DNA of 64,000 nucleotides from Rhodospirillaceae bacterium (GTDB lineage Bacteria; Pseudomonadota; Alphaproteobacteria; Rhodospirillales; Rhodospirillaceae), in contig JAVJSV010000012.1 of the NCBI GenBank assembly GCA_040219235.1, positions 558,001 through 622,000 on the forward strand, given 5' to 3'. Below the pieces are notes generated by a model. It saw only the letters and a program-made list of their open reading frames with translations, did no database searches and was not told the origin of the DNA. Below, in pieces: positions 25,633-31,162 of this stretch. Position 1 is the first letter of the stretch. Each line of letters begins with the position of its first letter. The position numbers and the translations under genes are program-made.

Positions 25633-27882
25633 TTAGGGGACTGCGGACTCTGCTGTGCATGCGGGTGAGGCATGGTCGATTTTCGATTTTGGAACAGTGA
25701 TGACGAAGGTTGTACCGACACCTGGTGTACTCTCAAATTCTAGCCGGCCTCCGAACCGTTTGATGATGTCTAAAGAGATCGACAATCCAAGGCCGCTTCC
25801 TTTGCCAGCTTTTTTTGTCGTGAAAAAAGGTTCGAACAGTCGGCGGCCAATGTGTTTAGGAATGCCGCATCCGGAATCAGAAACCGAAATGAAGATGTTG
25901 TCGCTGTCCTGATCGGCGTCGATAGATATTGTTTTGCTGTCTGATGTTTCAACCGCGTGGCTGGCATTGATCATAAGGTTCAGTACGATCTGTTCCAAAG
26001 CATCAGCACTGATTGCAGCCAGGGGCAGTGAGCTTTTGACGTGGTTCTCAAACATAATGCCGGCGGTTTGATAAGAGGATGCCGTTAAACTCGACGCGCG
26101 ATCCAGGGCGTCATTGACGTTGGCATGGGCGCTCAAGTCTTCTTTGAACCGTGAGAAAGACAGCATGTCCTGGACAACGCGGATGACCCTTTTGATTTCG
26201 GACTCGGCTTTCATAAGAGCCTCTCTGGCGCGGGCATTCTCCGTTTTGCGGAGGGCATACGCCACATAGTTGACGCACCCCATGAGCGGGTTATTCAGTT
26301 CGTGGGCAAACCCGGCCGACAGCGTGCCAAGGGTTGATAGTTTCTCTGCCCGGCGCCGTTCGGTGACATCTTGGTTGATGCCGATCATTAGCGTTTTTTC
26401 CGCTTGCGGGGCTTTAATCACGCGGGCTTTGCCGTAAATCACACGAACGGTACCGTCCGGTTTGAGAATGCGGAAGTCCTCTTCAAAATCGCCATATCCA
26501 TTTAGGGCATGATTTACAGCCTGTTCAACGCGCGGCAGGTCTTCCGGAAGAACGACTTTTTTAAAGGACTCGTATGTTCCCTGAAATGTCTGTGATGTGA
26601 AGCCAAACAAGTTGAGGCTTTGTTGGTCAACATCTAGTTGTCCGGTTTCGGGATCCAAATGCCAAGTTCCTGTTCCACCCGCGCTGAGCGCGAGATCCAA
26701 GCGCTCCCGGTCGGTGGTGATCACGGCCTCTGTTTTGCGGCGTATAACGATTTCTCTTTCTAGGGCGTTCTGAACCTGCTGTCTGGCATTTACCTCTGCT
26801 TCCAGTTGGGCGTTGGCTTTGGCCAATGCTCTGGATCGTTTGAGGCTTGTTTGCACTGTGAGGACGGAACTGTAGAGCAGAAGGGTCAGAATGACCCCAA
26901 GGGTGACGGCGATGTGAGGAAGAAAACGGCTTGCCCCGTTCAGCAAGTTCTCAGTCTTTGTGGCTGTAACGGTCCATTCTACTGCGCCGGACTTAATCGT
27001 GACCTGTGTTTGCAAAGCGTTGGATATGTCAGGCAACTCATTATCGTAGACGGCCCCGGTGCTATCTGTGACGACGATACCTATGGCTTGCTCTGCACTC
27101 TTAACTTGAGCGCCATAAAGCGCACTTCCTGTAATCCCGCTGACCGTTAACCCGGCGATAAGCAGGCTCAGTGCCAAACTGGTATAAGTCCGTTGTCTTG
27201 CGCTGTTGTCCGACCCCAACACGACGTTAATCATCCCAAGCCCCAGCAGTACGATAGCGAAAGATGTCATCAGGCTCATCGGGACCGCCATCGACCAGGC
27301 ATAGGTGTAAGGAATGCCTGTGATGTAACCGGTCAAGGCAATCAGTCCGAGGGTTGCAGTTGCGGCCCCGGACACAGCCGGAATGTATCGCTTGGCGATG
27401 CGGCGCGTTGCCAACTGGTCTGCGCCTGTGCGAATACCTGTTCCTAGGGCAAAAATAATGAGTGCAAGGCCCACATTCGGCGGCATGAGGACATAGCTAC
27501 CAAGCTCAACCGGCCACCTCCCCCCCATAACAAAGACAGCGGGTAAACTCCCGAGTATCGCAATGGTGGCTATTATTACACTGAGTGCCAAGGAGATGCG
27601 GCGTGATGCGCGGAGGAGTGTTTTAAAGGATGACAGCAGAAGGCTGAGCCCGCACAAGACGAGACCCAAGGTGGTCCCGGTCTGGAGGGGTAAAGCTGTG
27701 ATCGAATTATAGGTCTCAATCACTGTCAGGCCGGCAAAGAATATGGTGATGAGCGCGCAGATTGCAGTTGATGCATGTATCGCCGACAGCCAGTTAGACA
27801 GCTCGGGACCTGCGGTGGGGAATGCTCTGGCGCTCTTTACCCGTGGTGCCGAGCGGCGCAAATATGATGTGATTGCCACCAT
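25633..27882 (-). CDS. Multi-TM PAS sensor histidine kinase, third gene of a KaiB operon
   Basis: 749 residues. The first 345 hold about eight hydrophobic helices with an extracytoplasmic stretch near residues 255-325. A short coiled region follows, then a PAS domain (about 395-510, with DLALSAGGTGTWHLDP and a PAC-like end), then HisKA with the phospho-acceptor H527 in AGFAHELNNPLMG. The HATPase part has the N-box NLMINASHAVE, G1 DSGCGIP and G2 GKGSGLGLSI, all intact. It begins 12 nt after the kaiB-like stop and is last in the receiver–kaiB–kinase operon. It has no C-terminal receiver, so the separate receiver is the likely partner. It converges with mltG over a 27-nt gap. Confidence 0.9.
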   Translation of the reverse strand: MVAITSYLRRSAPRVKSARAFPTAGPELSNWLSAIHASTAICALITIFFAGLTVIETYNSITALPLQTGTTLGLVLCGLSLLLSSFKTLLRASRRISLALSVIIATIAILGSLPAVFVMGGRWPVELGSYVLMPPNVGLALIIFALGTGIRTGADQLATRRIAKRYIPAVSGAATATLGLIALTGYITGIPYTYAWSMAVPMSLMTSFAIVLLGLGMINVVLGSDNSARQRTYTSLALSLLIAGLTVSGITGSALYGAQVKSAEQAIGIVVTDSTGAVYDNELPDISNALQTQVTIKSGAVEWTVTATKTENLLNGASRFLPHIAVTLGVILTLLLYSSVLTVQTSLKRSRALAKANAQLEAEVNARQQVQNALEREIVIRRKTEAVITTDRERLDLALSAGGTGTWHLDPETGQLDVDQQSLNLFGFTSQTFQGTYESFKKVVLPEDLPRVEQAVNHALNGYGDFEEDFRILKPDGTVRVIYGKARVIKAPQAEKTLMIGINQDVTERRRAEKLSTLGTLSAGFAHELNNPLMGCVNYVAYALRKTENARAREALMKAESEIKRVIRVVQDMLSFSRFKEDLSAHANVNDALDRASSLTASSYQTAGIMFENHVKSSLPLAAISADALEQIVLNLMINASHAVETSDSKTISIDADQDSDNIFISVSDSGCGIPKHIGRRLFEPFFTTKKAGKGSGLGLSISLDIIKRFGGRLEFESTPGVGTTFVITVPKSKIDHASPACTAESAVP

Positions 27883-27894
27883 GCCAGCCCGGCC

Positions 27895-28203
27895 TCAAGA
27901 TACCATGCCGAGAAGGAGTCCAACCTCTACTTTTTCGACTGAGGAGAGGTCGCCAATCAATCGTCGCTCCTCGCCTTCACCTATTTTTATCAAAGTTGGT
28001 GTGGCAAAAACGTTGTCGACAACAGCCGCTTGCGGATCTGCAAGTACATCAATCACCTGAAGGTGCAAGTCTGCACGGTTTTGCGTTTCGATGAGCTTCT
28101 GTAATGCGCTTCTTGCACGCATAGCACTCGGTGTGCGCCCTGTGACGAACAATTTCAGGATGACCCCTGGCCCTGTTTCAGTTCTGAGGCGAGGATCAGC
28201 CAT
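27895..28203 (-). CDS. kaiB: KaiB family protein
   Basis: 102 residues. The thioredoxin-like KaiB pattern is complete: LKLFVTGRTPSAMRA at 16-30, VIDVLADPQ at 50-58, the cis-Pro loop FATPTLIKI at 66-74, and IGDLSSVEKVEVGLLLG at 83-99, which aligns with the fold-switching end of cyanobacterial KaiB. There is no CxxC, so it is not a redox thioredoxin. It lies between a receiver gene (3-nt gap) and a histidine kinase gene (12-nt gap). In cyanobacteria KaiB binds KaiC and displaces the kinase SasA; no kaiC is in this window. The role here is inferred as a partner of the adjacent kinase. The family call is firm; a clock function is not implied. Confidence 0.87.
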   Translation of the reverse strand: MADPRLRTETGPGVILKLFVTGRTPSAMRARSALQKLIETQNRADLHLQVIDVLADPQAAVVDNVFATPTLIKIGEGEERRLIGDLSSVEKVEVGLLLGMVS

Positions 28204-28206
28204 GGT

Positions 28207-28590
28207 TCAAGCTTGTGCTTTCGTTGCACCGACGACGCTGTCGACGATGGCTCTGATTTCATCCAACGCCAAAGGCTTGCGCGCGAGGTCAAAGGGAATG
28301 CCTTCATCTTGAATGGCACGCAGGGGCTCCAAGAATTCACCGTAAAAGGCGGTGACAATGTAAACTGGGATGCCAGGGCAGTTTTTATGGAGCTCGCGTA
28401 ACGTTTCAACGCCATTCATTCCGGGCATTTTCAGATCAAGGAGAATTAGATCGGGTTGGTACATACGGGCCAGTTCAAGACCCGTTTGCCCATCTTCTGC
28501 TGAAACGACGTCATAGCGCGTGTCTTCAAGCGCCATACTGAAGGCGTCACGGACTCCATGGTCGTCATCTATGACTAAAACACGTCCCAC
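28207..28590 (-). CDS. Stand-alone CheY-like response regulator receiver
   Basis: 127 residues from a GTG at 28590, 9 nt after AGGGA; an in-frame TTG at 28611 is the alternative. All receiver residues are present (numbered from the GTG): acidic D8-D10 (VIDDD), phospho-acceptor D52 (LLDLKMPGMNG), T80 and K105 (ARKPL). There is no output domain, so it acts by protein contact or as a phosphate relay. It is first in the operon with the KaiB protein and histidine kinase, and it diverges from a GGDEF-EAL gene. Confidence 0.9.
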   Translation of the reverse strand: MGRVLVIDDDHGVRDAFSMALEDTRYDVVSAEDGQTGLELARMYQPDLILLDLKMPGMNGVETLRELHKNCPGIPVYIVTAFYGEFLEPLRAIQDEGIPFDLARKPLALDEIRAIVDSVVGATKAQA

Positions 28591-28683: not shown

Positions 28684-28689
28684 TATAAT
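28684..28689 (+). promoter_or_regulatory. -10 box of the GGDEF-EAL gene
   Basis: A perfect TATAAT lies in AT-rich DNA between the divergent receiver and GGDEF-EAL genes. A plausible -35 (TTGTTG, 28663-28668) is 15 nt upstream. An ATG at 28688 overlaps this box, which argues that translation starts later, at 28751. Confidence 0.45.
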
Positions 28690-28750
28690 GTTTCGATTAA
28701 ATACAATATACACTCAAAACAAAATAACAACATACATTTGGGATGGGACT

Positions 28751-31162
28751 ATGAATACGGACGCACGCACTTTTGAGCCAGCTAGCAGCGCGTTTGAAAA
28801 GTCTATGGGGCTCAACCTCCTGGATTGTGTCTTAAGTGGAACCACGGTTGCTGCTCTGGTGATTGATGAGTCCCACAAAGTTATTTGGGCCAACCGTGCG
28901 TTCGAAAAACTGACCGGATTTGGGGCTGCAGCGACTCTGGGCCATTCAATAGAACGCTTTGGCGCTGGCCGCGGAACACCGACCATTGCTGACTGTGCTT
29001 GGAGCGCTAGCCAGTTGGGACGAACAGCGGCCTGCAAAATTTATTTACCGACCGCCGGTGGCGATGACGTGCCTGCGCTGTTGGAAATGTCTTCTTTGAC
29101 AAATTTTTCTGGGCAAAGTTGTCTTGTCGCGACGCTCACGGGTGACTCAAAAGCTAACAGCGCCGCATCTGATCGAGACGCAAGCGCCGTTCATGACATC
29201 GTAGCGAAATGTCAGGACGGTTTGCTGGTGATCGACAAGCGCGGTGCGATCGCATTTTGCAATGCCTCTGCAGCGGCTTTATTCGGTCGCAGCGAACAGG
29301 GCATGGTTGGTACACCGTTTGGATTTCCGTTCACCACTGGGGATGAATGGACGAGTCTTGAAATGACGCGCCGGGGTAAGCCCGTTTATATCGATATGCA
29401 GACCAGGGCTGTATCGTGGCAAGGCGATGATGCGACTTTAGCCACCTTAAGGAATGTGACGGAGCGACATGAAGTAGAGGTCATCGTCGCGATGCAGTTA
29501 AAAGCAATGGAAGCGACGGCGAACGGTATCTTTATCACAGATGCAAAAGGACGGATGAAATGGGTCAATGATGCGATCACTCGTATATCGGGATACGGAC
29601 GCGAAGAGTTGATCAGTCAGCCGGCGGATCTTTTGAGGTCAGACACACATGACACTGCGTTTTTCGAGGACATGTGGGCCAAGATAACATTAGGTCAAAC
29701 GTGGCGTGGACAGATCACAAACCGTCATAAAGAGGGGCACACATATACAGCCGAGCAGAGCATCACTCCTATTCATGATAAGGCGGGTCGTTTAACTCAC
29801 TTTGTCGCCATTCAAGAAGACGTGACAGCGAAGCTTAAGGCGCAGGAAGATATTGTACGGCTGGCTGAAATTGATTCACTCACCAATCTGCCGAACCGGG
29901 ATTTGTTTATGGATCGTGTTGGCACAGCGCTTGAGCGTGCGGCACGTAGTGATCGTCAGGTTGCTGTTATCGTGATGGACCTTGATCACTTCAAAGACAT
30001 TAACAACACGCTGGGCCACGATGTTGGCGATGACATAATTATTAGTGTGACCAAGCGTGTCAAAGATCTGATGCGCACGACAGACACGATGGCCCGCCTA
30101 GGTGGCGATGAATTTGGCGTTTTGATTGAAGACTTGGAGAATATGAATGCTGCTAGCCGAATGGTGAGACGCATTCTTGACACCTTTGACGAGCCGCTTG
30201 TCATTAATCAGAGAGTTATAAAATTGACGGCGAGTATAGGCATTTCAGCTTATCCAGAAGATGACGTCGATCCTCTTAATCTGATGCGTCATGCTGAACT
30301 TGCGATGTATAGATCAAAGGCAGATGGGGGGCACGCGTTCCAGTATTTTGATCAGGCTATGGATGATGAGATTCGGTCTAGGGTTAGTCTGGAACGCGAC
30401 TTAAGAGAGGCCATTAAAGAACAACAACTCTGGCTCGCCTATCAGCCCCAAATTAATCTGAAGACTGGAGAAGTGATTGGCGCGGAAGCGTTGTTGCGCT
30501 GGTCCCATCCTCAACTTGGATTTATTTCGCCTGGCGCGTTTATTCCTATTGCAGAAGCCTGCGGTCTTATTTTGCCGATTGGGGATTGGATTATAGAGGA
30601 AATTTGCCGCCAGACTTCAGTTTGGCGCGCTGCGGGCATGCCGCACATACAAATTGGTATCAATATTTCTGGTCACCAATTTAAGCAGCGGGAGTTGGCT
30701 ACACAGGTGTTGGGGCAGTTGAGTCGTAAGGGCCTTGATATCGATGCTGTTGATCTTGAAATTACAGAAACCGTTGCAATGGAACGCACAGAACAAGTTA
30801 CGCGCAATGTCGATCAGCTTGTGGAGGCTGGTATCAGCATTTCTATGGATGATTTTGGAACCGGGTATTCGTCGCTCTCAAATCTTCAGGCATTTCCTGT
30901 GCGGCGTCTAAAAGTTGATGGGTCATTTGTGCGTGGAATTGGATCCCATCAAGGCGATGAAAAAATCATAGAGGCTGTTGTTGGGCTCGGACACTCAATG
31001 GGACTAACTGTCATCGCCGAAGGTGTGGAAACAGAAGAACAAGTCGCGTTTCTCAAAGACCGGGCGTGCGATGAAATACAGGGGTATTTGATCAGCAAGC
31101 CGCTGCCAGCTGTTGAGTTTGAGGCTTTTCTAGCAAACCGCACTCAACACGCGGTGCATTAA
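28751..31162 (+). CDS. PAS-PAS-PAS-GGDEF-EAL cyclic-di-GMP enzyme
   Basis: 803 residues from the ATG at 28751; the upstream ATG at 28688 overlaps the -10 box. Three PAS-like domains begin near residues 35, 157 and 258. The GGDEF motif is intact at 451-455, preceded by an inhibitory-site pattern R442-T-T-D445. The EAL domain is intact: E579-A-L-L-R-W, NIS, DLEITET, DDFGTGYSS, KVDGSFV and AEGVET. Both synthesis and breakdown of cyclic-di-GMP are therefore possible. No membrane helix is seen, so it is cytoplasmic. It is divergent from the receiver–KaiB–kinase operon and shares its AT-rich control region, suggesting joint function. Confidence 0.92.
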   Translation: MNTDARTFEPASSAFEKSMGLNLLDCVLSGTTVAALVIDESHKVIWANRAFEKLTGFGAAATLGHSIERFGAGRGTPTIADCAWSASQLGRTAACKIYLPTAGGDDVPALLEMSSLTNFSGQSCLVATLTGDSKANSAASDRDASAVHDIVAKCQDGLLVIDKRGAIAFCNASAAALFGRSEQGMVGTPFGFPFTTGDEWTSLEMTRRGKPVYIDMQTRAVSWQGDDATLATLRNVTERHEVEVIVAMQLKAMEATANGIFITDAKGRMKWVNDAITRISGYGREELISQPADLLRSDTHDTAFFEDMWAKITLGQTWRGQITNRHKEGHTYTAEQSITPIHDKAGRLTHFVAIQEDVTAKLKAQEDIVRLAEIDSLTNLPNRDLFMDRVGTALERAARSDRQVAVIVMDLDHFKDINNTLGHDVGDDIIISVTKRVKDLMRTTDTMARLGGDEFGVLIEDLENMNAASRMVRRILDTFDEPLVINQRVIKLTASIGISAYPEDDVDPLNLMRHAELAMYRSKADGGHAFQYFDQAMDDEIRSRVSLERDLREAIKEQQLWLAYQPQINLKTGEVIGAEALLRWSHPQLGFISPGAFIPIAEACGLILPIGDWIIEEICRQTSVWRAAGMPHIQIGINISGHQFKQRELATQVLGQLSRKGLDIDAVDLEITETVAMERTEQVTRNVDQLVEAGISISMDDFGTGYSSLSNLQAFPVRRLKVDGSFVRGIGSHQGDEKIIEAVVGLGHSMGLTVIAEGVETEEQVAFLKDRACDEIQGYLISKPLPAVEFEAFLANRTQHAVH

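Follow-up and report, generated by a model that had tools for sequence, protein, structure and literature searches.

A receiver-KaiB gene pair beside a gene for a putative c-di-GMP enzyme in Rhodospirillaceae genomes mostly without KaiC

The window analysed here is a stretch of 64,000 nucleotides from a Rhodospirillaceae bacterium (assembly GCA_040219235.1, contig JAVJSV010000012.1, positions 558,001 to 622,000), and it encodes a KaiB-family protein in a genome where no KaiC was detected. The conserved unit is a tightly linked pair of genes, for a lone receiver domain and for KaiB, located back to back with a gene for a PAS-GGDEF-EAL cyclic di-GMP (c-di-GMP) enzyme. We tentatively interpret this as a KaiC-independent KaiB-receiver signalling pair with c-di-GMP as its output, to which a histidine kinase was recruited in the genus of the window; we rate this interpretation just short of probable. 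The arrangement suggests a KaiB with a job outside the clock, in a setting free of KaiC that is new for this protein family. Among the titles and beginnings of abstracts listed by searches of the open-licence literature, no description of such a module was found.

Conservation of the receiver-KaiB pair

All 73 genomes of the window's family were searched. KaiB exceeded the cut-off in 37 of them: 22 carry the type found in the window (hereafter receiver-linked KaiB), one carries a fragment (G679) and 14 carry other types. Members of the receiver-linked type were recognised by the genes around kaiB and by profiles derived from 17 of them, and the KaiB profile gives at least 118 bits for this type and at most 101 bits for every other KaiB scanned. 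The five members outside profile building (G690, G691, G693, G694 and G695) score 118–138 bits with the KaiB profile and 197–218 bits with the receiver profile (A2), and the latter reaches at least 197 bits in exactly 22 of the 73 genomes (E 1e-25).

The receiver gene is located directly upstream of kaiB and on the same strand in all 22 loci, at distances of -31 to +60 nt (between -31 and +17 nt in 20 loci). These 22 genomes also match the N-terminal 391 aa of the PAS-GGDEF-EAL open reading frame at 182 bits or more, against 124 bits for the match ranking next, and the other 51 genomes pass neither the receiver nor the GGDEF-EAL threshold. The GGDEF-EAL gene is divergently adjacent to the pair in 21 of the 22 genomes; in G287 they sit on separate contigs, close to an end in both cases. 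The flanking genes fabD-fabG-fabF-mltG and yicC-gmk recur wherever the loci are long enough to show them. No natural fusion of receiver and KaiB was seen among the open reading frames of the KaiB neighbourhoods scanned.

The gene behind kaiB is variable. A kinase gene is found there in three of the 22 loci (the window, G295 and G695), all belonging to the window's genus, and a short-chain dehydrogenase gene in 11 (Pfam adh_short in the two tested); eight loci have neither. G251, also of the window's genus, has kept the receiver-KaiB pair, and its kaiB has no kinase gene beside it. Matches to the kinase at E 1e-60 or better were obtained in three of the 73 genomes, from a maximum of 14 scored candidates in each. 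The kinase was rejected as the defining partner of KaiB, being behind kaiB in 3/22 loci only. Genes for TerC-family membrane proteins are often found beyond the dehydrogenase gene (L049, L051, L059, L062 and seven other loci).

An earlier first-pass annotation of this DNA described an operon of three genes, receiver, kaiB and kinase, and suggested a survey of this gene order. The receiver-KaiB part of that order is universal among the 22 loci, 20 of them in genomes without KaiC; the complete order is confined to 3/22 and to one genus. The annotation had missed the divergent PAS-GGDEF-EAL gene, which occurs in just these 22 of the 73 family genomes.

Absence of KaiC and distribution of the module

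The window genome is 99.85% complete and contains a single KaiB match. The KaiC ATPase family model PF06745 matches two proteins only, which we read from their translations as RadA and RecA, and the full-length KaiC model TIGR02655 matches the RadA locus only (21.7 bits). The full-length KaiC that defines a KaiBC or KaiABC clock is thus lacking, and the absence of KaiC first noticed close to kaiB extends to the whole genome.

KaiC is encoded in 17 of the 73 family genomes, with best matches of at least 124 bits; the best match of the next genome is 25 bits. It is present in all 14 genomes whose intact KaiBs are all of other types, in G167, which has no KaiB at all, and in two of the 22 genomes with receiver-linked KaiB (G080 and G285), each of which has separate KaiBs beside its KaiC. 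The remaining 20 of the 22 are without KaiC, and 13 of these have a completeness of 90% or more with no more than 5% contamination. KaiC presence and KaiB type are associated in the family (Fisher p 3e-8, for related genomes that are not independent).

Outside the family, 28 of the 29 KaiB-bearing genomes in a sample of the order (297 genomes) have KaiC at 179 bits or more, the exception being G046. In a class sample of 385, each of the 13 further genomes that pass the KaiB cut-off shows KaiC in the neighbourhood viewed. A phylum sample of 398 genomes gave 37 over the cut-off, and one locus each was viewed from 19 of them, using a weaker hit for G849; KaiC is nearby in 15 and not in four (L192, L193, L195 and L208, the last two lying on short contigs). 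The top receiver score among these 19 loci is 67 bits, and therefore none of them is of the receiver-linked type. The best 80 loci of a scan of genome_contigs comprise 10 of the receiver-linked type, 67 with KaiC nearby and three with neither. Those ten are contigs of family members, labelled Rhodospirillaceae (6), Alphaproteobacteria (2), Rhodobacteraceae (1) and Ca. Marinimicrobia (1). Within the samples searched, the module is confined to one family. The window KaiB as a single-sequence query of genome_contigs gave no result, nor did a receiver query of viral_contigs.

The exception in the order sample, G046, belongs to another family and has no KaiC match in its genome. Its kaiB lies 27 nt upstream of a gene for a PAS-PAS-HD-GYP phosphodiesterase with an intact HD-GYP motif, followed by motA and then motB on the same strand (L210:8485-12352, also L071:4343-6352). 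This KaiB falls outside the receiver-linked clade of the tree described below, and G046 is one further case of a KaiB without KaiC, not proof.

In two loci of the phylum sample (G865, L192:4937-6336; G868, L193:4983-6391) kaiB and the gene for a short histidine kinase overlap by 4 nt. KaiC was not found within the 12-kb stretch viewed in either, and a genome-wide search for it was not made there.

Identity, phylogeny and selection of the KaiB protein

The 102-aa protein had been called KaiB from its motifs, and a profile search agrees (Pfam PF07689, cut-off 27 bits; score in Table 1). All 17 members of the KaiB alignment (A1) match the same model, and the eight best solved relatives of the window protein are all KaiBs (64–67 bits). 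The NCBIfam model for KaiB-domain histidine kinases gives just 23.9 bits. Judged by its profile scores the protein belongs to the KaiB family but is not of the canonical clock type, because both NCBIfam KaiB equivalogs fall below their cut-offs (NF006798, 77.9 against 110 bits; TIGR02654, 74.8 against 145.3 bits).

In a KaiB tree of 191 rows and 92 columns the 22 receiver-linked sequences form one group (support 100/91), in a tree where many forks are unresolved and the bootstrap had not settled. The group is separate from the KaiC-linked KaiBs of the window's family. Within the genus, the ratio of nonsynonymous to synonymous substitution rates (dN/dS) is 0.07–0.19 for KaiB (3 of 6 pairs computable) and 0.012–0.034 for the receiver (4 of 6 pairs computable), with six of the seven computable dS values above 1. 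Receiver-linked KaiBs thus look to be under purifying selection.

The lateral contact in the KaiB ring is described as involving R23, K26, E84 and D91 in the relevant part of PMC6769508. With residues numbered by alignment to T. elongatus KaiB, the receiver-linked KaiBs have K58 in 1/22, D91 in 0/22, a basic residue at position 26 in 0/22, R23 in 13/22 and E84 in 16/22. KaiBs beside high-scoring KaiCs have K or R at position 58 in 21/25 and D91 in 13/25, and other KaiC-linked KaiBs have Q at position 58 in 106/137. Furthermore, KaiB from R. sphaeroides is described as binding KaiC without lateral contacts in the section of PMC10076222 dealing with it. Loss of the contact residues was considered as proof against KaiC binding, and the argument was dropped because KaiC-linked KaiBs also vary at these sites.

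Genes of the locus

The features of the locus are listed in Table 1. The three genes are packed on the minus strand as first described, with gaps of 3 nt between receiver and kaiB and 12 nt between kaiB and kinase. The GTG start of the receiver agrees with the starts in the two closest homologs of the genus. The PAS-GGDEF-EAL gene is part of a longer open reading frame beginning at 28688, and the ATG is its probable start, as in G251.

Table 1. Features of the receiver-KaiB locus (positions in the window)
Feature	Position	Strand	Basis and remarks
Membrane PAS histidine kinase, 749 aa	25633..27882	-	Pfam PAS_3, HisKA, HATPase_c; motifs; transmembrane-like segments
KaiB-family protein, receiver-linked subtype, 102 aa	27895..28203	-	PF07689, 64.5 bits; tree clade
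Lone receiver domain	28207..28590	-	GTG start (an alternative upstream TTG would extend it to 28611); Pfam Response_reg, 78.2 bits
Conserved non-coding stretch	28690..28732	no strand	DNA alignment of four genus loci
PAS-GGDEF-EAL protein (predicted c-di-GMP enzyme), 803 aa from ATG 28751	28751..31162	+	Pfam PAS, GGDEF, EAL; divergent to the three genes above

The receiver has no output domain. All 17 aligned sequences, that of the window and 16 others, keep the residues expected of a phosphorylatable receiver (D8-D10, D52, T80 and K105) without variation. The best solved match of the receiver profile is Spo0F (77.1 bits). The kinase has a single PAS domain, seven transmembrane-like segments in a simple hydropathy scan and all of the H, N, G1, F and G2 motifs, in line with the earlier statement that the catalytic residues of both proteins are intact. 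Compared with its two orthologs (864 and 888 aa) it lacks over 100 residues between the last two transmembrane-like segments; part of the sensor may have been lost. The GGDEF and EAL motifs of the divergent protein are likewise intact at the sequence level. The non-coding stretch immediately before the GGDEF-EAL start shows good conservation among four genomes of the genus, and the receiver side of the intergenic gap does not; the stretch is a possible promoter or regulator site.

Possible role of the receiver-KaiB pair

As KaiB travels with one phosphorylatable receiver and needs no KaiC, direct action of KaiB on this receiver is the simplest reading. By analogy with the KaiB-CikA pseudo-receiver interaction, KaiB would most likely bind the receiver directly and tune its phosphorylation or its availability. 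The occurrence of the divergent GGDEF-EAL gene in the same genomes suggests c-di-GMP as the output, and the neighbouring enzyme, with an activity predicted from its motifs, is the probable target of the pair. A membrane PAS kinase appears to have joined the operon in the genus of the window and, judged from the operon alone, is the probable phosphodonor of the receiver there; other members of the family would need a phosphodonor encoded away from the pair. Contact between KaiB and receiver, phosphotransfer from the adjacent kinase and the c-di-GMP output are what we infer from this arrangement. The first-pass annotation had proposed that KaiB modulates either the kinase or its receiver; the receiver is backed as partner by conservation in 22/22 loci, and the kinase has lost its place as the defining one (3/22, and not in G251).

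Several observations weigh against a direct KaiB-receiver pair. The co-occurrence is that of neighbouring genes within one family, where related genomes are not independent, and KaiC is present in two of the 22 genomes. The short-chain dehydrogenase that takes the place of the kinase in 11 of the 22 loci has a role that our proposal leaves unexplained. The AlphaFold models are too poor to tell the fold state of KaiB, with a predicted local distance difference test score of 55.8 for the window protein and 59.4 for a canonical KaiC-linked control (11 close rows each), both low in confidence in the switching half.

Losses of the locus bear on the same question. A remnant in G679 (L105:6114-6457) consists of a 54-aa KaiB piece adjoining a 60-aa GGDEF-EAL piece, with no receiver match. 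In G242 a 59-aa receiver piece remains, and in G269 no match for the locus genes was found between yicC and mltG. G266, the fourth genus genome without KaiB, gave no matches in the stretch viewed, where the locus itself was not seen. A single deletion could account for each of the losses in G679, G242 and G269; this also counts against the proposal and makes them weak evidence of shared function.

The same features could be explained if KaiB, receiver and GGDEF-EAL protein are neighbours with separate functions, KaiB serving as a thioredoxin-fold adaptor for some other protein and the linkage reflecting inheritance of one locus. The evidence for association does consist of gene order and co-occurrence in one family, and deletions of the kind just described fit this explanation as well. 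We regard it as unlikely, if well worth considering, as all 22 loci keep receiver and kaiB adjacent on one strand, whatever follows kaiB (kinase, dehydrogenase or neither). Somewhat less likely again is that KaiB acts on the adjacent histidine kinase in the manner of a detached SasA sensor domain, with the receiver as the ordinary substrate of the kinase. The two genes are close in the window and linked in G295 and G695, and a kaiB-then-kinase order is also seen in KaiC operons of the family (e.g. L042, L044 and L048) and in the two phylum-sample loci L192 and L193 without KaiC nearby. This explanation is opposed by the 19 of 22 loci where no kinase follows kaiB, that of G251 included, and by the three kinase matches among 73 genomes, at the candidate depth given above.

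An ordinary split Kai system, with KaiB serving a KaiC encoded elsewhere or missed, was an option in the first-pass annotation, and G080 and G285, with the pair plus a separate KaiC and its own KaiBs, would agree with it, as would the many surface residues still common to receiver-linked and KaiC-linked KaiBs. The option fails for the window genome, searched with two models, and for 20 of the 22 genomes; KaiC is present in each of the 14 family genomes that have intact KaiBs of other types only. We consider it highly improbable. We give just as little credence to the idea that KaiB is what remains, in decay, of an earlier KaiBC system. The fragments in G679 and G242 and the clean loss in G269 indicate that the locus can decay, but the frames are intact in 22 genomes, dN/dS is low where computable (most dS values being above 1 or not computable), and the clade is separate from the KaiC-linked KaiBs of the window's family.

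A KaiC-independent KaiB-receiver pair is therefore our preferred interpretation. The stronger statement, that in one alphaproteobacterial family KaiB directly regulates a phosphorylatable receiver controlling c-di-GMP, entirely without KaiC, is in our view possible and slightly more doubtful. If true, KaiB-receiver binding as known from CikA would be a free-standing signalling principle and not a clock accessory. Twenty genomes lack KaiC and keep one conserved KaiB subtype intact, which makes it directly testable whether KaiB by itself can act on a receiver, and so small a pair could separate the receiver-binding role of KaiB from its role with KaiC.

Comparison with known systems

According to the AF-Cluster paper, in the part that concerns KaiB, what KaiB does in bacteria is incompletely understood, and fold states were predicted for 487 KaiB variants (PMC10808063). 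The passages of Schmelling et al. 2017 on gene distribution report KaiB only alongside full-length KaiC, and state that cyanobacteria without kaiC were removed by their filter (PMC5520375).

A precedent for contact between KaiB and a receiver fold is CikA. The α1-β2-α2 surface of its pseudo-receiver is described as binding KaiB (PMC12632262, in a passage citing Tseng et al. 2017), and its phosphatase activity as being raised by fold-switched KaiB variants (in the corresponding part of PMC6378743). In both cases KaiB meets, or would meet, a receiver-fold protein belonging to a phosphorelay, as the same passage of PMC12632262 has it for CikA. However, cyanobacterial KaiB acts from the KaiC complex, whereas the window genome has no KaiC, and the CikA domain is without the phospho-accepting aspartate that the window receiver keeps.

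The proteobacterial KaiBC systems of R. sphaeroides and R. palustris, as outlined in parts of PMC10076222 and PMC4794148, share with the window an alphaproteobacterial KaiB family and often an adjacent histidine kinase, but those systems are built around KaiC, which is absent here. SasA, a kinase with a KaiB-like sensor domain as described in sections of PMC6769508 and PMC6378743, similarly couples a KaiB fold to a histidine kinase, whereas KaiB and kinase in the window are separate proteins and the kinase is not conserved. Single-domain receivers of the Spo0F type resemble the window receiver in being lone receivers without an output domain; the window type differs from them in being paired with KaiB in all 22 loci.

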